A stretch of 51,091 nt of DNA from a virus. A model generated the notes under the pieces. The model worked only from the letters and a program-made list of their open reading frames with translations, did not search any database and was not told the DNA's origin. The translations under genes and the position numbers were made by a program. Shown here one piece after another: positions 1,578 through 24,350 of the stretch; the stretch's first letter is position 1; the number at the start of each line of letters is the position of its first letter. The DNA lies in the IMG/VR virus record IMGVR_UViG_3300021077_000022, positions 1 through 51,091 of that record. The stretch is one strand, 5' to 3'.

Positions 1578-2350
1578 AGCCTCTTTGCATAGATTTGTAC
1601 GCAGGATTAGGCGGCTGGACCGAAGGCTTTCTCGCTGAGGGTTACGACTGCATCGGGTTCGATATCGAGCGCCATCAATACGGCGAAGAGAAGTATCCAG
1701 CGCAGTTGGTGCTCCAGGACGTGCTCACACTTCACGGTTCTCAGTTTCGCAATGCGGCCATCATCGTGGCGTCTCCTCCGTGCCAGGCGTACAGCTACCG
1801 AGCGATGCCGTGGAAGCGCGCGAAGTCACTGCCACCACCCGATAACAGCCTGTTCGAAGCGTGTTTTCGGATTCAGCGGGAAGCGTGCGAGGCGACCGGG
1901 GGACACATTCCGATGGTGGTCGAGAACGTGCGCGGCGCGCAGAAGTGGGTGGGGCGTGCCATGTGGCACTTTGGGAGCTTTTACTTTTGGGGAGACGTGC
2001 CAGCGATCATGCCAGCGCAATCATACCGCAAAAACTCAGGAGGTAGTTGGTTTGGACAGCGGGACGGAAGGCTATTGGAACGAAATGATCCGCGCGATAT
2101 GCGTCGTAACGCGGATGGTGAGTTCACTGTGATGGGGCGCACCGGTGGTCACAATCATCCAGGAAAGGCACTGGATGGAATAAAGCCGCATGGCTCTGGA
2201 GCAGTATGGTTCGACAGCGGAATCTGCAAAAGTTCATCGCGCTCCGATGCCCGCAAAGCTGCCAGCGCTCGCATAGCGAAAATTCCGCGCCCGCTGTCGG
2301 AATGGATTGCGCGGATCTACAGGCCGCTGGAGTCCCCCCATGCCGGTTAG
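1574..2350 (+). CDS. DNA cytosine-5 methyltransferase
   Basis: A 258-residue protein with the hallmarks of C5 cytosine methyltransferases: motif I DLYAGLGGWTEGF (residues 7-19) for S-adenosylmethionine, motif IV with the catalytic Cys in SPPCQAY (about residues 67-73), and motif VI VVENVRG (about 115-121). The C-terminal 120 residues would hold target recognition and the motif IX/X region. It is short for the family, as in many phage enzymes. Start is TTG 1574, overlapping the upstream stop. It probably methylates phage DNA against host restriction. No partner restriction enzyme is visible, so it is an orphan enzyme. Confidence 0.85.
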   Translation: MKPLCIDLYAGLGGWTEGFLAEGYDCIGFDIERHQYGEEKYPAQLVLQDVLTLHGSQFRNAAIIVASPPCQAYSYRAMPWKRAKSLPPPDNSLFEACFRIQREACEATGGHIPMVVENVRGAQKWVGRAMWHFGSFYFWGDVPAIMPAQSYRKNSGGSWFGQRDGRLLERNDPRDMRRNADGEFTVMGRTGGHNHPGKALDGIKPHGSGAVWFDSGICKSSSRSDARKAASARIAKIPRPLSEWIARIYRPLESPHAG

Positions 2351-2984
2351 GATGCTTCCCGAGGCGCCGGCAGATGGCCGGATGGCGGAACTAGACCGAC
2401 TGGTATCCGCTGGCCATGGAAATCGGCTTTGCCTTGTGTGCTCGGTACCATGCAAGATCAAGTACTGTTCGCCGGAATGCCGCCGTGCCGGAAGGAGGAG
2501 CGGTGATGGAACGAGACAAGGTGATTTGCCGAGACAAGAAATTTGGCGATGCGGTGAAATTACGGCACGGATTGTGCTGGACGAGTCTGCTGGTTGGCAG
2601 GCCGTCACTTGGGCAAGCAATGGCGATCAGGCTCACTCCCACCCGCGCTCACAAGATAGCCAATGCGCTTACGGAGTGGGCAGACAAACAGAAGGGCGGC
2701 GCGCGATGACGATAGAAGAACAGGCTAAGTTGCGCGATGTGTTGCACATACAGAGCGGAGATAGGATCGTTTCGGCGTGGGCTGAGAACGCACGCGGGCC
2801 AGGGTGGCAAAACCAGTTATTTATCGTACTGGTTGAACAACACAGCGATGGAAAAATGCGAGTTGAATCCGTTCAAGTGAGGGAAGCGACTCCATGCATG
2901 ATAGCCATCTTCGATATATGCGCAGCGGCGCACAAGTCGCTAATGGACAGCATGAAGGCGGCGGAGGTGACAAAGCAATGGTGA
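2340..2984 (+). CDS. Zinc-ribbon protein, unusually overlapping two genes
   Basis: The frame beginning at ATG 2340 (overlapping the methyltransferase end) encodes a clear zinc knuckle: CLVCSVPCKIKYCSPECRR near residues 35-53. Unexpectedly it has no stop after this domain. It runs on through the whole of the differently framed gene at 2506-2709 and joins the frame of the gene at 2706-2984. Either the zinc protein lost its stop and is a 214-residue fusion, or only its first part is meaningful. The zinc knuckle is visible; the full-length product is uncertain. Confidence 0.4.
   Translation: MPVRMLPEAPADGRMAELDRLVSAGHGNRLCLVCSVPCKIKYCSPECRRAGRRSGDGTRQGDLPRQEIWRCGEITARIVLDESAGWQAVTWASNGDQAHSHPRSQDSQCAYGVGRQTEGRRAMTIEEQAKLRDVLHIQSGDRIVSAWAENARGPGWQNQLFIVLVEQHSDGKMRVESVQVREATPCMIAIFDICAAAHKSLMDSMKAAEVTKQW
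2506..2709 (+). CDS. Hypothetical protein (67 aa)
   Basis: ATG 2506 has a strong ribosome site (GGAAGGAGGAG) and the stop overlaps the next ATG (2706, ATGA). The product ends in an amphipathic helix (RAHKIANALTEWADKQ). It lies entirely within the zinc-ribbon frame, but its start signals and natural composition make it the better-supported gene in this stretch. Function unknown. Confidence 0.55.
   Translation: MERDKVICRDKKFGDAVKLRHGLCWTSLLVGRPSLGQAMAIRLTPTRAHKIANALTEWADKQKGGAR
2706..2984 (+). CDS. Hypothetical protein (92 aa)
   Basis: Starts by ATGA overlap. The sequence has a beta-rich middle (QNQLFIVLVEQHSDGKMRVESVQ) and a helical C-terminus, like a small alpha/beta domain. It shares its frame with the upstream zinc-ribbon ORF, so it could be made both alone and as a fusion tail. 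No family recognised. Confidence 0.5.
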   Translation: MTIEEQAKLRDVLHIQSGDRIVSAWAENARGPGWQNQLFIVLVEQHSDGKMRVESVQVREATPCMIAIFDICAAAHKSLMDSMKAAEVTKQW

Positions 2985-3196
2985 GAGATCCACGCTTAGA
3001 CCCGCAGCCGGGCGACGTGCTGCGGAAGGGGACAATGGTTAGGAAGGTAATTCGCATCGATAAAGCCTATTCCGATTCACAAGGTGATGACGTGGCACAC
3101 ACACGGAATGGGGGAAAACGGGAGCGCTACATTTTCGTTTGCAACTGGCGCCGCTGGGCAAAGGGAGCCGAGGTGGTGAGCGGAGGCGAGAAATGA
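2978..3196 (+). CDS. Hypothetical protein (72 aa)
   Basis: Start at ATG 2978 with GGAGGTG seven bases upstream. The sequence (GDVLRKGTMVRKVIRID, then RERYIFVCNWRRW) suggests a small beta-barrel, possibly nucleic-acid binding. The stop overlaps the next ATG. Function unknown. Confidence 0.5.
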   Translation: MVRDPRLDPQPGDVLRKGTMVRKVIRIDKAYSDSQGDDVAHTRNGGKRERYIFVCNWRRWAKGAEVVSGGEK

Positions 3197-3507
3197 GCGA
3201 CTACAACTCTCCGGCGAATGATACGCTGTGCTTCAGGCTGGCAGAATCGCGCCGAGAAGTACAGCGCGCCCACAAGGAGAATAAATCTCTCCGCGCTCGT
3301 GTCGCGGAGTTGGAGTCGGACGCCAGGCGGTTCGTGTGGTATTTCTGTTCGTGCAAGAATAGCGATTTCATCACGGCTTGTCTCAATGGAGCGTTAGGCG
3401 GATATACTCTCGACCAGTGGCGCGAATTAATCGACAAAGCCATGTCGTCCGAGCGTCCAGTGCCGGAGGATAAGCCGACAACTCATCTAGAGGAAGGAAT
3501 GCGATGA
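3193..3507 (+). CDS. Coiled-coil hypothetical protein (104 aa)
   Basis: ATGA overlap at both ends. Residues 12-42 (FRLAESRREVQRAHKENK and on) form a likely coiled coil; the second half has an aromatic segment with two Cys (WYFCSC) and an acidic tail. No recognised family. Confidence 0.5.
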   Translation: MSDYNSPANDTLCFRLAESRREVQRAHKENKSLRARVAELESDARRFVWYFCSCKNSDFITACLNGALGGYTLDQWRELIDKAMSSERPVPEDKPTTHLEEGMR

Positions 3508-4889
3508 GCGAAAGCACGAAGATTGAATGGTGTGATGCAAGTTGGAACCCGATTCGCGGATGCTCGATGGCGAAGGGCAGCGAGACCGGCGGCTGTCTGA
3601 ACTGCTACGCGGCGCGGATGTGCGCGCGTGGTCTGCCGGGCCTGAACTCGCCCACCACCGGCGAGCCGTTTGCCGTCATGCGCGATTCCGGCCCGCGCTG
3701 GACCGGCAAGGTGGAACTGATCGAGTCCGCGCTGGAGCTGCCGTTGCACTGGCGCAAGCCGCGCCGGATCTTTGTGAATTCGATGAGCGACTTGTTCCAT
3801 GAGTCGCTACCCAATGAGGCGATTGACCGCGTGTTCGCGGTGATGGCGCTGTGTCCGCAGCACACATTCCAGGTGCTTACGAAGAGGCCGGAGCGTATGG
3901 TGGCATATCTCACGGGTGGTCCATGGGGGCACATCGAACAACGTGCGAGTGAGACTATCGGAACTCGGCGCGAAATTCCAGTCGAGCATCTACCTCTGGC
4001 GCACGTCCACTTTGGCATCTCCTGCGAGAACCAAGAGACCGCCGACGCGCGCATTCCGCTACTGCTTCAGACTCCGGCCGCGGTGCGGTTCCTGAGCCTG
4101 GAGCCTTTACTTTCTCCGGTGGATTTGTCAAAATGGTTATATGACAACACAAGATCGCGAGTTCCTGGCACAGATAGCATTGGGCTGGTTCAAGGTTACG
4201 ACGAGTGGCGAGATCCACCGCATGGTGAAATTCGGGGGCGGGGGAACGACGCCGAGCCTGCACCGAATTTCGGAAACTCGGGCCGAGCGAAGCTGCTCTC
4301 GCGAGGGCGGCTATCTCAGGGTGATGTTTATGGGATCGGCTGGAAGGATGAAGGTGTCGGCTCACCGAATTGTTTGGATGGTGTCGAACCATTCGGACAT
4401 CTCGGCTCCGATGGAGATCAACCACAAGAACGGAAACAAGCGGGACAACCGCCCAGGGAATCTGGAACTGGTTACCAGGGCAGAGAACGTCATCCATTCT
4501 TTCAGGGAACTTCCCCGGAAGAAGAAAGCTCAGCGAGGAGCGGCCAACCCTATGGCGAAGATGACGCAATCGCAGGTGGACGAGATCCGGGCGCTCTGGA
4601 GAGCCAGGGTGATGAGTCAGAGAGAGATCGGGGCTCACTTCGGCATAACACAGTCAGCGGTATCGGCGATAGTTCTTCGGAGATCCTGGTAGGCATTCAC
4701 CAAGTCATAGTCGGCGGCGAGAGCGGCCCTGGAGCGCGCCCGATGCATCCCGACTGGGTGCGCTCGATCCGCGACCAGTGCGTTGCGGCTGGCGTGCCGT
4801 TCTTCTTCAAGCAGGCTATAATAGGAGGGAAGAAGGTTTCAATGCCAGAACTAGACGCGAGCCGCCATGCGGAAATTCCAAGGTCTTAG
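3504..4889 (+). CDS. Gp37/Gp68 (DUF5131) family protein carrying an inserted HNH gene
   Basis: The N-terminal ~210 residues are a good match to the phage Gp37/Gp68 family: the opening TKIEWCDASWNPIRGC, the cysteine cluster GGCLNCYAARMC thought to hold an iron-sulfur cluster, RIFVNSMSDLFHE, and LTKRPERM. The family C-terminal block VIVGGESGPGARPMHP and FFFKQ returns only near residue 410. The ~185 residues between are low-complexity Gly/Pro/Arg/Glu sequence. They coincide with an HNH endonuclease gene in another frame (4141-4692). The host frame stays open through the insert. Whether the 461-residue product folds is unknown; the family's exact role is not established. Confidence 0.75.
   Translation: MSESTKIEWCDASWNPIRGCSMAKGSETGGCLNCYAARMCARGLPGLNSPTTGEPFAVMRDSGPRWTGKVELIESALELPLHWRKPRRIFVNSMSDLFHESLPNEAIDRVFAVMALCPQHTFQVLTKRPERMVAYLTGGPWGHIEQRASETIGTRREIPVEHLPLAHVHFGISCENQETADARIPLLLQTPAAVRFLSLEPLLSPVDLSKWLYDNTRSRVPGTDSIGLVQGYDEWRDPPHGEIRGRGNDAEPAPNFGNSGRAKLLSRGRLSQGDVYGIGWKDEGVGSPNCLDGVEPFGHLGSDGDQPQERKQAGQPPRESGTGYQGRERHPFFQGTSPEEESSARSGQPYGEDDAIAGGRDPGALESQGDESERDRGSLRHNTVSGIGDSSSEILVGIHQVIVGGESGPGARPMHPDWVRSIRDQCVAAGVPFFFKQAIIGGKKVSMPELDASRHAEIPRS
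4141..4692 (+). CDS. HNH homing endonuclease nested in the DUF5131 gene
   Basis: A 183-residue protein in a different frame inside the DUF5131 gene. It has an HNH_3-type core: SAHRIVWMV (first His), then MEINHKNGNKRDNRPGNLEL (the NHKNG...N-N-LEL signature) and a following helix, about residues 70-120. The C-terminal 40 residues (KMTQSQVDEIRALW, SQREIGAHFGITQSAVSAI) form a helix-turn-helix for target recognition. This is the domain order of free-standing homing endonucleases. No good ribosome site precedes ATG 4141, so expression may be low or coupled to the host ORF. Insertion limits appear to match the ORF ends closely. Confidence 0.85.
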   Translation: MTTQDREFLAQIALGWFKVTTSGEIHRMVKFGGGGTTPSLHRISETRAERSCSREGGYLRVMFMGSAGRMKVSAHRIVWMVSNHSDISAPMEINHKNGNKRDNRPGNLELVTRAENVIHSFRELPRKKKAQRGAANPMAKMTQSQVDEIRALWRARVMSQREIGAHFGITQSAVSAIVLRRSW

Positions 4890-5610: not shown

Positions 5611-5856
5611 ATGAAAAAACGCAAAGGGCTTTACAAGTACGATGGATATCTGGCCTTCCGCGTGGCCGCTGAGGCTCACCACGCGATTCTTCCGACGGCT
5701 GAGTGTGATGGCGGAAGCCGCACGATGGGAGCTATCTTCCGCGCTCTGGACAAGGCGTATACGGATGGCATCGAGGACGCGTTGCAACTGAGCGACGAGG
5801 AACTGAAGCGGGAGCGGAGAAAGATCCAGCCAAAGCATCCCGACCAGGACGTGTGA
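5611..5856 (+). CDS. Hypothetical protein (81 aa)
   Basis: ATG 5611 comes five bases after the previous stop, in the same 'tgacgcc' context that precedes the methyltransferase remnant at 5861. Basic N-terminus, helical Glu/Arg-rich C-terminal half (LSDEELKRERRK). Function unknown. Confidence 0.5.
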   Translation: MKKRKGLYKYDGYLAFRVAAEAHHAILPTAECDGGSRTMGAIFRALDKAYTDGIEDALQLSDEELKRERRKIQPKHPDQDV

Positions 5857-5860
5857 CGCC

Positions 5861-5917
5861 ATGAGCAAGCCACTGCGGGTTCTAATCGCGTGCGAATTCT
5901 CGGGAAAGGAGGCGTAA
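5861..5917 (+). pseudogene. N-terminal remnant of a phage methyltransferase-like gene
   Basis: The 18-codon frame reads MSKPLRVLIACEFSG followed by three unrelated residues and a stop. The VLIACEFSG opening is the typical N-terminus of a widespread phage SAM-dependent methyltransferase-like protein, which continues for a further ~150-200 residues in intact copies. Nothing of the rest is visible downstream, where another small gene begins at 5923. I read it as a deletion remnant; a short leader peptide cannot be excluded. Confidence 0.55.
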
Positions 5918-5922
5918 CTTCC

Positions 5923-6147
5923 ATGATTCGTGGTCCGTATCGCATTGAAAGGCCCGTGCTTCTCCCCGATGATGACGACGACAGGGACGCTACCCCGCTA
6001 AACCAGGCATACGAGAATCGGGTCAAGGACGCGAGGTCCATGCTCCGGTGCGGTAAATCGCACGAAGCCATCCGGCAAATCCACGGAGGCGCGGTTCTTG
6101 CGGAAGTGCTGGAGTCGGAGCGGGAGTCGCGAAGATTTAGACATTGA
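5923..6147 (+). CDS. Hypothetical protein (74 aa)
   Basis: Start at ATG 5923, with GGAGG 10 bases upstream inside the methyltransferase remnant. An acidic run (PDDDDDRD) is followed by two helices (NQAYENRVKDARSMLR and SHEAIRQIH). It is the last gene before the promoter at 6144. No family recognised. Confidence 0.5.
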   Translation: MIRGPYRIERPVLLPDDDDDRDATPLNQAYENRVKDARSMLRCGKSHEAIRQIHGGAVLAEVLESERESRRFRH

Positions 6148-6172
6148 CTTGTCTATTGACTTCTGGTAAGGT
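6144..6172 (+). promoter_or_regulatory. Sigma70-like promoter for the ParB-like gene
   Basis: TTGACT (6144-6149), 17 bp, TAAGGT (6167-6172) with an extended -10 TG at 6164-6165. The -10 hexamer is weak but the -35 and TG compensate. The predicted start near 6179 puts the palindrome at 6181-6194 on the first transcribed bases. Confidence 0.55.
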
Positions 6173-6180
6173 GAATTCGA

Positions 6181-6194
6181 GTCCAACGTGAGAC
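6181..6194 (+). promoter_or_regulatory. 14-bp near-palindromic element, copy 2 (operator-like)
   Basis: GTCCAACGTGAGAC, two right-half differences from the perfect palindrome. It lies directly downstream of a promoter and 15 nt before ATG 6210, the expected place for a repressor operator. Confidence 0.65.
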
Positions 6195-6209
6195 TCGAAG
6201 AAAGTGCAG

Positions 6210-7043
6210 ATGACTCCCGCTTACGCATCCACCAAGGTGGTTCCTATTGAAAGAATCGTGGAAGATCCATCGATTCAGGTGCGAGTTTCGATCGATCCCA
6301 GAGAGGTTAAAGTTCAGGAGGCTCTCATTCAAGAGCATGGGTTTGTGGATGGAGTTGTGCTGTACTACGAGAATGACCCATCGACCGACCCGCTCCTTTT
6401 GTCGGACGGATTCCATCGGCTTGCAGCTTACCGTAATCTCGGCCACACTCAAGTTCGAGCCATACTGCGCAAAGGAGACAAGTCCGACGCTCTGAGGTAT
6501 GCCATCAAGAACAACTGCCACCACGGCGCCCGGATGACGAATGCCGATAAGCGCCGCGCCGCCGAACTGGCAGTAGTGGACGAACGCATTGGAGAGTTGG
6601 ATGACAAGGAAATTGCCCGCATGATCGGCGTGTCCGTGTCTTTGGTGGCCGGCGTGAGACGTGGGGAGACCAAGGAAGCGAGGCGGCGTAAGGCGGTGGA
6701 GAGACGGCAAGGTAAGTCCGGGTCGGGTGGGGAATCCGTTCATCCAGTCGTCGCGCACGAGCGCCACCACGAGGACAAGCGGCCAACGAAGGCCATGCGT
6801 CTTGCGCAGATCATGGAGGATCTTCGGCTCGACGTCATCGAGGAAGCCGATCTGGTCGGCCTAACGGAAACGAAGTCGGCCGCATACCACTTCCTGCCGA
6901 AGGCCGGAGGGTCCATCTCCCTGAAGATCGTCAACAAGGATGGACTCCCAATGGTTGAGCTTCCGGTGACGATCGTGAAGGAGTGGAAGTATGAGCAGGT
7001 CGTCCTCAAGTTGGAGGACGGAAAGGTGGGGATGGTGGAATGA
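6210..7043 (+). CDS. ParB/Spo0J-like DNA-binding protein
   Basis: 277 residues. The N-terminal domain (about 10-95) has the ParB-type fold signals, including a conserved ALIQEHGFVDGVVL segment and LLSDGFHRLAAYRNLG, the DGxHR motif of the ParB/Srx nucleotide-binding family. A helix-turn-helix follows at about 125-145 (DDKEIARMIGVSVSLVAGVRRG). The C-terminal ~90 residues are not recognised. Start taken as ATG 6210 (GTG 6204 in frame is possible). Phage ParB-like proteins act as DNA-binding regulators or partition factors. The palindrome beside its own promoter makes autoregulation plausible. ATGA overlap with the next gene. Confidence 0.75.
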   Translation: MTPAYASTKVVPIERIVEDPSIQVRVSIDPREVKVQEALIQEHGFVDGVVLYYENDPSTDPLLLSDGFHRLAAYRNLGHTQVRAILRKGDKSDALRYAIKNNCHHGARMTNADKRRAAELAVVDERIGELDDKEIARMIGVSVSLVAGVRRGETKEARRRKAVERRQGKSGSGGESVHPVVAHERHHEDKRPTKAMRLAQIMEDLRLDVIEEADLVGLTETKSAAYHFLPKAGGSISLKIVNKDGLPMVELPVTIVKEWKYEQVVLKLEDGKVGMVE

Positions 7044-7291
7044 GTAAGTGGGACCTCACATTCGAAATCATCAAGACTATGGGGATGCTGTACGAGGTTC
7101 GCTTCCAAGGTCCGAAAAAGCTCGGAGCCGCGATGGAGCGCTTCTACAACTTGAGGGGAGTGTTGGATTATATGCCGCAGGAATGGCTCAATGCGAACGA
7201 TGCAGCCAGCGAGTTCCTGGACTACATTTACACCGGGTCACCAGAGCCGGAGTGGCTGAAAGAAGCCGAGTATGACTCCAAGAGAACTTAG
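7040..7291 (+). CDS. Hypothetical protein (83 aa)
   Basis: ATGA overlap with the ParB-like gene. Mixed alpha/beta composition with many aromatic residues (WDLTFEIIKTMGMLYEVRF) and an acidic C-terminus. No domain recognised; co-transcribed with the ParB-like gene. Confidence 0.55.
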   Translation: MSKWDLTFEIIKTMGMLYEVRFQGPKKLGAAMERFYNLRGVLDYMPQEWLNANDAASEFLDYIYTGSPEPEWLKEAEYDSKRT

Positions 7292-7601
7292 GATCGCGGT
7301 TCGGGACGGCCGCATGACCGCCGTGGACCCTTCCATCTACATAAATGGCTACCCCCCTCCCTTGGAATGGCCGAAATGGAAAAGAGATCGGCTCAGGGCG
7401 GCAATACGGGCGGCTATTCTTTTCATGCGCGGCACGGGGTGGCGGGGAGTTATGGGGGATTTGTCCCGCCGTGGATTTCTGAAGAAGGAAACCGTGTCCA
7501 AGGCACGCGTTGCTCAGTACGTTAAGGTCGGGATTGCGTACCTGATGAAGCAGGGATGCTTCGAAGTGGTTAAGAATTCGGGGAAGAAAAGTGACAGTTG
7601 A
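7272..7601 (+). CDS. Hypothetical protein (109 aa)
   Basis: Overlaps the previous gene by 20 bases. Basic and partly helical (KRDRLRAAIRAAILFMRGTG; VSKARVAQYVKVGIAYL). The C-terminal half could be a winged-helix-like or small helical domain, but no family is recognised. Confidence 0.5.
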   Translation: MTPRELRIAVRDGRMTAVDPSIYINGYPPPLEWPKWKRDRLRAAIRAAILFMRGTGWRGVMGDLSRRGFLKKETVSKARVAQYVKVGIAYLMKQGCFEVVKNSGKKSDS

Positions 7602-18066: not shown

Positions 18067-18771
18067 CTAAGAGACGATCTCAATCCGCCGGTGATTCTGA
18101 AGGTAGAGGATCGCCTTCATGAGAAGGGCGGGGTCGTCGTCGAAGCCCCCCAGCCCGGTATTGCACTTTTCGCAAAGGAGTGCCCGGTGGGTGCCGGGGA
18201 ATCGGTGATCGTGGTCGATGGCCAGCCGGGTGTTCTTTGGCCTCCCGCTTGGCGGTTTTTCGCAGATGGCGCACAGGCCGTTCTGTTCGGCCTCAAGTTC
18301 TGCGCGTCTCTCTGGGGCGACGCCATAGAGCTTTTGCTCCATGTGCTGCCTGCGGGACAGGTGGTTTTTGGGCGTATGGTACCAGTCGAGGGACAGTTTT
18401 CGAGTGCATGGCTTGCAGAGGTTCCCGAAGCCGTCCGGGGAAGAGCAGTGGGCCGGGAATTCATCCACGGCTCGGACCTCTTGGCAGGAGGTGCAGACCT
18501 TTTGGCCGGGACCCACCATTCCGATGAGCGCCGGACAGGCCAAGAGGTGCTTTCTGAAGTGGAGCTTGACGGTCTGGTGGCCGCATCTCCTGCATTCGAT
18601 CACCTTCCCCTTGGGGGCCGGCTCGGGTGGCTTTGGCAGGTTCTTCGGGTTGAGCGCGCACTTCTTTCTGTGCGGCCATATTTCTCTGGCGGAATGCTGT
18701 TCTCCGCAGTGGGGGCAGGCTCGGTACACGCGACCTTTGAGCCTGGGTTTGGTTTGTCGGGGTTGTTCCAT
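18067..18771 (-). CDS. Free-standing endonuclease VII-like (HNH/ββα-metal) nuclease
   Basis: 234 residues on the minus strand. Three zinc modules lead: CPHCGEQHSAREIWPHRKKC (20-39), CRRCGHQTVKLHFRKHLLAC (60-79) and CTSCQEV...CKPC (93-122). The catalytic domain (about 165-215) is recombination endonuclease VII-like: LCAICEKPP, LAIDHDHRFPGTHRALLC, EKCNTGLGGF, with the DHDH pair and zinc Cys. Such genes are common mobile endonucleases. It lies against the intron-split capsid gene, opposite in direction. Its promoter gives an apparently leaderless mRNA and shares the 55-base gap with the capsid ribosome site. Late plus-strand transcripts would be antisense to it. Confidence 0.85.
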   Translation of the reverse strand: MEQPRQTKPRLKGRVYRACPHCGEQHSAREIWPHRKKCALNPKNLPKPPEPAPKGKVIECRRCGHQTVKLHFRKHLLACPALIGMVGPGQKVCTSCQEVRAVDEFPAHCSSPDGFGNLCKPCTRKLSLDWYHTPKNHLSRRQHMEQKLYGVAPERRAELEAEQNGLCAICEKPPSGRPKNTRLAIDHDHRFPGTHRALLCEKCNTGLGGFDDDPALLMKAILYLQNHRRIEIVS

Positions 18772-18777
18772 GTGTCA

Positions 18778-18806
18778 AGTGTACGCCAGCCCCATCAAAA
18801 TGTCAA
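18778..18806 (-). promoter_or_regulatory. Minus-strand promoter, leaderless endonuclease mRNA
   Basis: TTGACA (18806-18801, perfect consensus), 17 bp, TACACT (18783-18778), then six bases to ATG 18771. It ends seven bases before the capsid gene's AGGAGG (18813-18818). Confidence 0.72.
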
Positions 18807-18826
18807 CTATTTAGGAGGTAGACAAA

Positions 18827-20068
18827 GTGGCACTCCAACTTACGGAGCTTGACGCCTACGTTTACGATCACATCGTCGATAAGACAACGGATTAAGAATC
18901 AGTCCCTTAGCGGAGTAATCCGCTTCGAATAACCCCGTGAATTGCTGGGAAACCTAAAGCCGACAGGGCCAAGGCAATCAGCAGCGAAGCCCAGAGATGG
19001 GAACGTTCAACGGCCATCGCCGGAAGGCGAGTAGGGTCAAGCGACCCGAAGCGCGGGGCACCCCTTATGAGGGTGATGATATGGTCTGAGCTGCGGACGA
19101 AAGCCGCAGAAGGTCGGGAGTTAGCGATCCCGGTCGTAACACAACTGATCATCTACGGTGCAGATCCAGCATTTACGCGCTTGAGTCAGCAGAATGCCGA
19201 GCGATTCAGTGGCAACAGCAGAATTCGCAGACCCGTGATCGTGGGCGAGCTCAACGGCGACTTCATGGGCAAGGGCGAGACCATGAACATCTCGTTCGTG
19301 ACCACGGACGCGGCGATCACGGTGGACCTGAAGGTAGCGTGGGTAAATATCACGCTATACGGATGGGACGCGATGAACGACGACGGCCCGGAGGCGATTT
19401 TCAATCAGGTGGAGATGAAGTTTCTTAACGCCTCGTTGAAGATGGCCAAACTGCTCGCCGTCAACATGTACCAGAACGGCCAAGCCTCGACGGGCCGGCA
19501 GAAGTACTTGAACGGGTTTGCCGAGTGGTACGACGATGGCACCAACTACCCAACGGTCGGCGGCCAGAACCGGACGGATATAAACGGCATCCCGAACGGC
19601 ACGGTAGGCGGCTTGAACGCCTATCAGGCGACGCTGACGACGTTCACGTTGGCGCAACTCAATACAGCATACGGCAACGCGTGCTGGGGGTCGGATCACC
19701 CGGATATGATCGTCGCGACACAGAACGGCTGGAACTTGATCTGGCAGGGAACGCAGCCGGCGATGCGGTATGCTAACACCGACAACGACTTGGCTAACGT
19801 TGGATTCCAAAATTTCAAGTTCAACGCGGCCGACGTCGTGATTTCTCGGTACCTGCCGTCCGGGTCCTCGCCGATTGGGCAGATGTACGGATTGAATACC
19901 GCCTATATCGAGTGGTGGTTCTCGCAGGTTGACCTGTTCCAGTTTGGCTTTACGGGGTTCAAGGGCGTGAACAACTCGATCGATGTGAGCGGCCAGTTCA
20001 TCTGCGGATCGAATTTGATGGTGCCTAGCCCCAGGACCGGGTTCGCTCTGCACTCAAGTCTTTTCTAA
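18827..20068 (+). CDS. Major capsid protein, split by a group I intron
   Basis: Proposed as joined 18827-18892 and 19133-20068, 333 residues after splicing. Exon 1 begins at GTG 18827 with AGGAGGT seven bases upstream and encodes MALQLTELDAYVYDHIVDKT-T-D; the intron's first bases are TAA, an immediate in-frame stop. Exon 2 continues VVTQLIIYGADPAFTRLSQQ, a natural continuation of a phage coat N-terminal helix. The remainder is a coat-like alpha/beta protein (VAWVNITLYGWDAMNDDGPE). The position after the scaffold supports capsid identity. An ORF caller would wrongly start it at ATG 19067, inside the ribozyme, without a ribosome site. Confidence 0.8.
18893..19132 (+). ncRNA. Group I self-splicing intron in the capsid gene
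   Basis: About 240 nt. P1: exon GGAT (18889-18892) pairs with GTCC (18902-18905), giving the expected U-G pair at the 5' splice site. P2: AGCGGA/TCCGCT (18909-18914/18919-18924). P3: CCGTGAA (18935-18941) with TTCAACGG (19006-19013). P4: CTGGG/CCCAG (18945-18949/18990-18994). P7: CCAT/ATGG (19014-19017/19081-19084). P8: CGCC-GGAA-GGCG (19018-19029). P9: CTGCGG/CCGCAG (19091-19096/19104-19109). GTTCAACGGCC and GATATGGTC match the conserved core (R and S) strings. It has no internal ORF. The 3' boundary (G19132) is chosen for frame and the terminal-G rule and is less certain; P10 is not obvious. Confidence 0.85.
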
Positions 20069-22112: not shown

Positions 22113-24350
22113 ATGGCGGGGTATCCAGTAATGCGCGTAACATTCTGCAATACATCGTTGACTTTCGATCCTTGGGATTTCAGAAATCCGGACGATCCCG
22201 GAATTGGAGGGTCTGAGACCGCCGTAGTGGAATGCGCTAGGCGACTGGCCTTGCGCGGACATGAGGTCACCGTGTATGGCACGCTAAGGGAGGATACTCC
22301 TTCTGAGTGGCAGGGAACGCGCTGGCTGCCACTTTCTGAGGCCGATTACTCTCTCCCCGGATGGTGGTTTCTTTCCCGATGCCCGGAGACCCTGGACAAC
22401 TTCTCAGTCGATCATCCCGGCCAAATGATTTGCCTGACCGCGCAAGATGTCTACTACCCACAATTAACCGATGAGCGATGGGAGAAGTTGGACCGCTTTA
22501 TCGCTCTCTGCCCAACGCATGTGAGATTCACTAAAGATAAATACCCCAAGTACGCTCACAAAGTGTTTGGCGGATTCAATGGGATCAGGAACGACGTAAT
22601 CCGGGAGATTGAGTCCGTCAACCCGCCGGTCAGAAACCCACGGAAGATAATCTTCGCGTCTTCACCGGATCGTGGGCTTTTACCGCTTCTGAAAATATTC
22701 AGGCGAGCGCGTCAGAGGGTCCATGATCTTGAATTGGTAGTGGCCTATGGGTTCGACAACATCGAGAAGATCATCGCGTCGAACCCGCCGACGAACCACT
22801 GGAGAACCATCTACGATGAGGCTATGCGTGAGATGCGTCAGCCGGGGGTCACGTGGATGGGGAGGATCGGACAGAGGCAGTTGATTCGCGAGAAACTGTC
22901 CTGCGGGATGAGTGTTCACCCGACGATGTTCATGGAGACGGGATTTATCTCAGGGATAGAGGAAATGGCCTGCGGAGCGATCCCGATCCTCAGTCCGACG
23001 TGGGCGGCGGGGGATTACTGCAAACACGGGGTATGGATTTTTGGCGATCCCGACGACGCACTCACCCAAGCTCGGTACGTCGGGGAAATCTTCAGGCTCG
23101 CGAGGCAGCCTGAACTTCAGGAACATATTCGCGCGGAAATGATGCCGCGAGCGAGAAATGCATTCAATTGGGAGCGCTATGTGGATCTGGTGGAATCCTG
23201 GATGTACGGGTTGGAGGGCCACCGCAATAGTTTCTTTCAGTTCAACTTTGCGCTGAAGCACGCCAAGGGGGCGGGTAGAATCCTTAACGTAGGGTGCTGC
23301 GACGATGCGGGTGAGATGAGCAAGATCGGGGCCGTTAATGTTGACAAGTTCGAGTTTGACGATCACCTGAAGACGCGGAACGCGGCGGACATTATCTCGG
23401 ATGCGCGAGATCTTCCCCGACCGTTCCAGTCGCACTCATTCGATATGGTCTGTTCCACGGACATGCTGGAGCATTTTCCAACCGACGAGGTTCCGGAGCA
23501 ATTGGAGAAATTTAAGGCGTGCTTGAAGCCGGGTGGTCGGATTCTCTTCACGGTCCCGAACGACACGCGGAATCCCAACCCAGACGACACCAATGTTCGT
23601 GGGTACGGAGGGCATCATCATTGCCCTCCGGAGGTGATTGATCGCTGGTTACGCGATGCTCGATTGAGGGCTGTAGTGCGACAGCCTATCGAATATGGAT
23701 TCGATGATATATGCGGGGAGGGTGTCGTGGCGGTGGATGACTCCCCTAAGCACTCTGTGGTGTTCCTTACTTACGACCCCGATGGCAAGATGAAAGAGAT
23801 GGTTGAGCGGAGCCTGTCTTTGATACGGCAGCATGCGCCGGGGGTAGAAATCATCATAGCGGACGATAAGGGAAAGTGCGCTGCGATCAATAACGGATTC
23901 GCAAAGACTAAAGGGGAGTACATCCATGTAGTTTGCAACGACATGATGATTCATGACCCGGACTGGCTGGAAACGATGGCTGTTCCGAATACGCTGACTG
24001 GATGGGCGCCCAGGACGTTCGTGCTGACGGGACAGATTCTTCCCGAGATGTCTTTGTTTTGTGTCCCGAGGAATATCTACGAGGCCATCGGAAGAGTAGT
24101 ATGGGATACTGCGTACGAGGATGGGTATGGTTTTGACGATGAGTCCTTGATCGCCCGCGTCAAATTAGCTGGGTTCAACGTAGAGATTCGGCCGGTGAAG
24201 GGGGATCACTTGTGTCTCCAGACCCACAAGAACTATTTCACGTCGGAAAAGTTCGGTCAAATGTATGATCGAAATATGGAGGTGTTCAAGAGGGAGTTCG
24301 ACCACATAAAGCCTGTCGGCGGATGGCTCAACTATAAGAGGCCGGCATGA
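22113..24350 (+). CDS. Trifunctional GT4 - methyltransferase - GT2 fusion
   Basis: 745 residues with three domains. Residues ~7-385: GT-B glycosyltransferase of family 4 type (GIGGSETAVVECARRLALRG near 29; VTWMGRIGQRQLIREKLSCG; later EEMACGAIPILSP). Residues ~390-545: class I SAM methyltransferase (RILNVGCC..., then SFDMVCSTDMLEHFP and LKPGGRILFTVPND). Residues ~548-745: GT-A/family 2 transferase (SVVFLTYD, IIIADDKGKCAAINNGF, VCNDMM as the metal-binding region). Together they could build and methylate a glycan in one polypeptide. ATG 22113 or 22131 could be the start. The stop overlaps the next ATG. Confidence 0.85.
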   Translation: MAGYPVMRVTFCNTSLTFDPWDFRNPDDPGIGGSETAVVECARRLALRGHEVTVYGTLREDTPSEWQGTRWLPLSEADYSLPGWWFLSRCPETLDNFSVDHPGQMICLTAQDVYYPQLTDERWEKLDRFIALCPTHVRFTKDKYPKYAHKVFGGFNGIRNDVIREIESVNPPVRNPRKIIFASSPDRGLLPLLKIFRRARQRVHDLELVVAYGFDNIEKIIASNPPTNHWRTIYDEAMREMRQPGVTWMGRIGQRQLIREKLSCGMSVHPTMFMETGFISGIEEMACGAIPILSPTWAAGDYCKHGVWIFGDPDDALTQARYVGEIFRLARQPELQEHIRAEMMPRARNAFNWERYVDLVESWMYGLEGHRNSFFQFNFALKHAKGAGRILNVGCCDDAGEMSKIGAVNVDKFEFDDHLKTRNAADIISDARDLPRPFQSHSFDMVCSTDMLEHFPTDEVPEQLEKFKACLKPGGRILFTVPNDTRNPNPDDTNVRGYGGHHHCPPEVIDRWLRDARLRAVVRQPIEYGFDDICGEGVVAVDDSPKHSVVFLTYDPDGKMKEMVERSLSLIRQHAPGVEIIIADDKGKCAAINNGFAKTKGEYIHVVCNDMMIHDPDWLETMAVPNTLTGWAPRTFVLTGQILPEMSLFCVPRNIYEAIGRVVWDTAYEDGYGFDDESLIARVKLAGFNVEIRPVKGDHLCLQTHKNYFTSEKFGQMYDRNMEVFKREFDHIKPVGGWLNYKRPA

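Follow-up and report, generated by a model that had tools for sequence, protein, structure and literature searches.

The window analysed here, the whole 51,091-nt stretch of a 51 kb IMG/VR virus contig, raises the question of why the reading frame at the start of its major capsid gene runs into a stop codon after 22 codons, and of how the sequence that separates these codons from the rest of the gene came to lie there. Comparison with homologues indicates that the interruption is almost certainly real and that it is very probably a self-splicing group I intron, the removal of which would restore a 328-residue coat protein. Taken together with the spread of this intron in the company of a neighboring nuclease gene by collaborative homing, the reading as a whole is one that we consider likely. 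The parts of the capsid gene are:

18813 to 18818, plus strand: ribosome-binding site AGGAGG of the capsid gene (sequence)
18827 to 18892, plus strand: capsid exon 1, GTG start, 22 codons (matches the N-termini of intronless homologues)
18893 to 19147, plus strand: group I intron of the capsid gene, 255 nt, without an ORF (RF00028; empty site in L004-L006; covariation)
19148 to 20068, plus strand: capsid exon 2, 306 codons and stop (PHROG 9953 major head protein, E 4.8e-20)

An intron in the major capsid gene

As an earlier, sequence-only reading of this DNA described, the ribosome site and the GTG at 18827 open a frame of 22 codons that meets TAA at 18893-18895. This in-frame triplet, UAA in the RNA, opens the intron; the last intron nucleotide is G. 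The Rfam Intron_gpI model (RF00028, gathering score 50 bits) matches 18883-19109 on the plus strand over its full length (model 1-253) with 66.2 bits (E 1.2e-14), and across the 51,091-nt window this is the sole Rfam match above gathering. Intronless alleles (L004-L006), which came to light when exon 2 was used to look for relatives and whose capsid is 94% identical to the window protein, read unbroken across the joint as VALQLTELDAYVY(D)(H/Y)IVDKTTD-IIYGADPAFTRL, with the joint itself at ...DKTTD/IIYGADP. Because these alleles are uninterrupted at the junction, the splice site can be placed between codons 22 and 23, as had been proposed, and the ORF-less intron measures 255 nt instead of the ~240 nt first estimated. 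Exon 1 residues (MALxLTELDAYxxxxIVxxTTD) are found in the intronless coats, and wherever the gene start of an intronless relative is complete, even at ~42% identity, the exon 1 region is present. Lack of a covariance match, or homologous coats that lack exon 1, had been named beforehand as findings that would speak against an intron; the covariance search returned a match above gathering and the coats carry exon 1. An assembly artefact was also considered as the source of the interruption and is unlikely because the intron and its surrounding sequence recur in two further assemblies, L002 and L003. From the comparison, splicing of the capsid mRNA is near certain, and we infer that it takes place in vivo.

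If the capsid message were left unspliced, translation would stop at the TAA after 22 residues, whereas self-removal of the intron would join codon 22 to exon 2 and yield the 328-residue protein. The major capsid protein is among the phage proteins expressed most highly, so splicing of this intron must be efficient. The alternative without splicing is that the ATG at 19067, inside the insert, starts a 333-residue coat protein and that exon 1 is an unrelated leader peptide. The frame 19067-20068 is indeed open, and it is the source of the 333 residues that had been given as the length of the spliced protein; it is the unspliced frame, with a start within the intron, and the spliced protein has 22+306 = 328 residues. 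Exon 1 residues are, however, contiguous with exon 2 in intronless homologues, no ribosome site could be seen by eye before 19067, the corresponding frame is closed by stops within the introns of L007, L016 and L023, and the RNA structure covaries across related introns, as detailed below. Translation from 19067 was rejected on the strength of the homologues and of the stops in the relatives' introns, and we give the reading without splicing almost no credence. Thus, the earlier interpretation stands as to the group I intron, the splice, the TAA and the start that a mechanical call would misplace at 19067 with the loss of exon 1, and is corrected as to the lengths of protein and intron. Gene callers that ignore introns put the start of this capsid gene within the intron.

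Some observations on the gene and its relatives may be recorded here. At the homologous capsid start position, L023 has ACG (3695) and L207 has ATT (1948), each with a good ribosome site before it. A capsid homologue on L208, a contig binned to Alphaproteobacteria, has an in-frame TAG at ~2170, which could reflect a pseudogene, an error or stop-codon reading. The capsid relatives L207 and L209 lie on MAG contigs assigned by binning to Candidatus Sulfotelmatobacter and to uncultured Acidobacteria, a hint that the hosts may be acidobacterial. Positions 22113-24350 of the window, downstream of the capsid gene, encode a 745-aa protein with glycosyltransferase and methyltransferase domains.

Covariation in the intron RNA

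The structural elements referred to below are:

18902 to 18905, plus strand: internal guide sequence GUCC, pairing with exon GGAU at 18889-18892 (P1); covaries with the exon over six insertion sites
18933 to 18939, plus strand: 5′ strand of P3, partner 19052-19058; covariation
19012 to 19016, plus strand: 5′ strand of P7, partner 19082-19086; covariation

Eight homologous introns from seven lineages were aligned, each delimited as in the window with the help of intronless homologues. In this alignment, 94.1% of the cells in the group I helices (P1, P2, P3, P4, P5, P7, P7.1, P7.2, P8, P9 and P9.1) are paired, a value that falls to 30–43% when the partners are slid, and changes on both sides are seen in 32 of the 58 pairs, a count matched by 0 of 500 shuffles. 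The P3-P7 core covaries, and all seven helices that had been drawn from the window alone (P1, P2, P3, P4, P7, P8 and P9) are paired over the eight introns, P9 being the least well supported (paired in 70% of cells, with some misalignment). The fold of the window intron has a z-score of -3.0. Between the 5′ strand of P7 and the 3′ strand of P3 lie the covarying hairpins P7.1 and P7.2, by which introns are placed in subgroup IA2; the present intron may belong there.

P1 of the window is GGAU/GUCC and places a U-G pair at the 5′ splice site. In all eight cases, the last nucleotide of the 5′ exon is a U that faces a G and the last of the intron is a G, and the rest of the guide helix covaries with the exon (GGAU/GUCC, GCCU/GGGC, GCGU/GCGC, UGAU/GUCA and CGAU/GUCG). 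By reading, a good P10 with the 3′ exon was not found in the window intron; a P10 of 3–4 pairs was found in the same way in several relatives' introns. Seven of the eight introns are 235–258 nt long and that of L207 is 308 nt. Each has an in-frame stop at its 5′ site or soon after; such stops are common in introns of this kind and are thought to bar ribosomes from the folding intron (PMC3984707).

Six insertion sites in one capsid family

Within the capsid family, the eight introns occupy the following positions, counted from the capsid start codon:

nt 27: L016
nt 31: L007, first intron
nt 42: L207
nt 57: L023
nt 66: the window, L007 second intron, L039
nt 155: L189

The first 66 nt, out of 984, contain five of the six sites (p ~8e-6 if sites were uniform along the gene). 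Two introns, with a 35-nt exon between them, are found within the first 22 codons in L007 (3446-4010), L008-L011 and L022. When 17 related records, nine of them with introns, were searched whole, all RF00028 matches lay in the capsid gene. A single origin of the capsid introns was considered, as a first intron tree grouped six of the eight, but closer introns from other genes dissolved this grouping; in the expanded tree the capsid introns form a weakly supported mix and common descent is not claimed. The record L016 also has nine tRNA matches clustered in 1.6 kb (5800-7406).

The diversity of insertion sites and the paired introns of some relatives had no place in the sequence-only reading, nor had the gene just upstream:

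18067 to 18771, minus strand: free-standing gene for a 234-aa nuclease of endonuclease VII type (DHHRN) (Pfam, PHROG, PDB, DHHRN residues)

A free-standing nuclease gene upstream

The nuclease gene is on the opposite strand, with 55 nt between it and the downstream exon 1 and a scaffold-like structural gene on its other side; it forms with exon 1 and the intron a ~1.1 kb cassette (18067-19147). Its product matches Pfam PF02945 (E 4.2e-19) and PHROG endonuclease VII (E 1.9e-32), and its closest solved structure in PDB is that of the DHHRN enzyme Hpy99I (E 2.5e-8). DHHRN enzymes are recognized by the D-H-x-H, R and N residues, two CxxC pairs and a C-terminal catalytic motif, the C-terminal position being that of the homing-endonuclease clade and not of the resolvase clade (PMC6083498). 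By these sequence criteria the window protein is a putative DHHRN homing endonuclease, with N-terminal zinc-binding motifs, a C-terminal catalytic motif and intact DHHRN residues, and nine of nine homologues keep all the catalytic residues at the C-terminus. Its specificity would presumably be for a target in exon 1 or at the exon junction.

Between pairs of lineages, nuclease identity is mostly 27–46% and is uncorrelated with capsid identity (Spearman -0.22, Mantel p 0.83): the window and L012 share 83% in the capsid and 31% in the nuclease, and L016 and L017 share 67% and 57%, respectively. A gene that moves, or is replaced, by itself would be expected to show such independence. The identity comparison is used by itself here because the nuclease tree, with its long branches, is barely resolved.

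Probable collaborative homing and its alternatives

In the experimental precedent for collaborative homing, that of F-CphI and the psbA intron, cutting of the intronless gene by the nuclease is followed by repair that moves both elements, and the intron prevents self-cutting (PMC6083498). The locus studied here has the composition expected of such a system, an ORF-less intron and an adjacent free-standing nuclease that are present or absent jointly. The nuclease gene is found in all seven intron-bearing lineages, where it directly precedes the capsid gene and lies on the minus strand, and is absent from 14 of the 16 intronless lineages of the capsid family; the two remaining lineages, L012/L014 and L017-L020, have the nuclease without an intron and deviate from strict joint presence. 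No intron without the nuclease was found among the seven intron-bearing lineages. The association has a Fisher p of 1.5e-4 with lineages taken as independent; as they are not, it was also computed within the inner capsid clade, where p is 0.024. Since no relative in this capsid family was found to have the intron without the nuclease, the intron probably spreads with its neighbor, and we hold the homing partnership of the two to be fairly probable. In a mixed infection, the nuclease would cut intron-free capsid genes near their 5′ end, and repair from the intron-bearing phage would copy the nuclease gene and the intron together. The intron would split the nuclease target and thereby shield its own genome from being cut, and the insertion sites at nt 27–66 could all lie within one nuclease target. 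Sliding identity among the window, L005 and L007 gave no clear co-conversion tract; the empty allele closest to the window is ~82% identical to it in the DNA of exon 2, which is too divergent for such a tract to show clearly.

It is also conceivable that the intron is a plain group I intron and the nuclease a mere neighbor, a homing endonuclease that spreads alone while introns hitch-hike or are inherited independently. Free-standing nucleases are common near structural genes (PMC10448857), and the two lineages with the nuclease alone fit this explanation. Against it stand the co-occurrence (7/7 versus 2/16), the crowding of five of the six sites beside the nuclease gene, and the base rate, as the domain model that recovers the nuclease in all nine carriers places such a gene within 1 kb of 0 of 166 matches to other phage group I introns.

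Other capsid families provide evidence on both sides. Close intron relatives in other genes were sought by pattern, in a search that is biased and yields no rate; it gave six distinct loci, four of them in other capsid genes (L227, a distant PHROG 9953 type; L228, a P22-type coat; L225, SU10-type; L231, Phage_capsid_3/N4-type). The capsids of L254, which represents the same locus as L227, and of L255 are 98% identical, yet a free-standing nuclease (PHROG endonuclease), together with an ORF-less intron after a nine-codon exon 1, is present in L254, and L255 has neither. Identity in the flanking DNA is 92% and 90%, and the changed tract stops at the 3′ splice site. This pair, which argues against a mere neighbor, is an independent parallel for the joint presence of nuclease and intron in a distant capsid. 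Among P22-type coats, a family unrelated to that of the window capsid, an intron accompanied by an upstream LAGLIDADG gene (Pfam LAGLIDADG_3) is found in L243-L245. L247-L250, with a P22-type coat, have a similar ORF-less intron near codon 10 (~2122-2382) and no adjacent nuclease, as chance neighbors would allow; the link between intron and nuclease is thus strong and not universal. Taking both sides together, we regard independent spread of the two elements as unlikely. Group I intron matches were also noted in the capsid genes of L231 (three, at 1764-3527, N4/Phage_capsid_3-type) and L225 (4461-4691, the same in L241, SU10-type).

Two routes to a target shared by a free-standing nuclease and a separate intron have been raised, one of them being nuclease turnover (PMC10448857). 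Applied here, turnover would mean that the intron formerly encoded its own nuclease and lost it, the free-standing gene being a later replacement. The great differences between the nucleases of most lineage pairs look as if the gene had been repeatedly replaced. No remnant ORF was found in any of the eight introns, however, not even in the longer one of L207, and nuclease-only lineages exist while intron-only lineages were not found in this capsid family, so that turnover seems improbable. The same distribution of lineages suggests, as a tentative variant of collaborative homing that we would not favor at present, that the nuclease came first and then recruited introns, its target stretch acting as a trap for any group I intron that lands there. 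A landed intron would be selected since splitting the target protects the genome, giving six positions from nt 27 to nt 155 and, in one lineage, two introns at once. If true, this would show in which sequence the steps towards collaborative homing occur.

Comparison with known systems

Phage capsid genes with group I introns are already known (PMC3706429), as is collaborative homing, including with this nuclease family. In the open-access literature we found no description of the collaborative-homing combination in a capsid gene, nor of several insertion sites beside one nuclease locus. In Cluster J mycobacteriophages, LittleE likewise has a capsid-gene intron, thought to be group I, the splicing of which was shown by RT-PCR and protein sequencing; that intron differs in being ~819 bp long and in carrying, on the other strand, a LAGLIDADG-like gene of its own (PMC3706429). 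A capsid-gene intron is also reported for Tuc2009, as cited in PMC3706429. In T4, the separate nuclease MobE is likewise reported to drive homing of the nrdB intron in trans (in a study cited in PMC3984707). That intron carries the defunct nuclease I-TevIII, whereas the present capsid intron carries none. The collaborative homing loci of T3/T7-like phages and of the ICP1 terminase also have the nuclease gene outside the intron and differ in nuclease family and in gene (PMC10448857).

The F-CphI/psbA system of cyanophage S-PM2 (PMC6083498) likewise has an ORF-less group I intron in a phage gene and an adjacent free-standing nuclease that belongs, like the present one, to the Endo VII/DHHRN family and has its catalytic motif at the C-terminus. 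Here, in contrast, the host gene is that of the major capsid protein, the nuclease lies upstream on the opposite strand, and the introns of relatives occupy six sites, with two introns in one lineage. The distribution of introns and nuclease is the unusually informative part of this locus: the capsid family forms a natural series, from neither element through the nuclease alone and the nuclease with one intron, at any of six sites, to the nuclease with two, which permits a direct test of the order of events and of the nuclease target.
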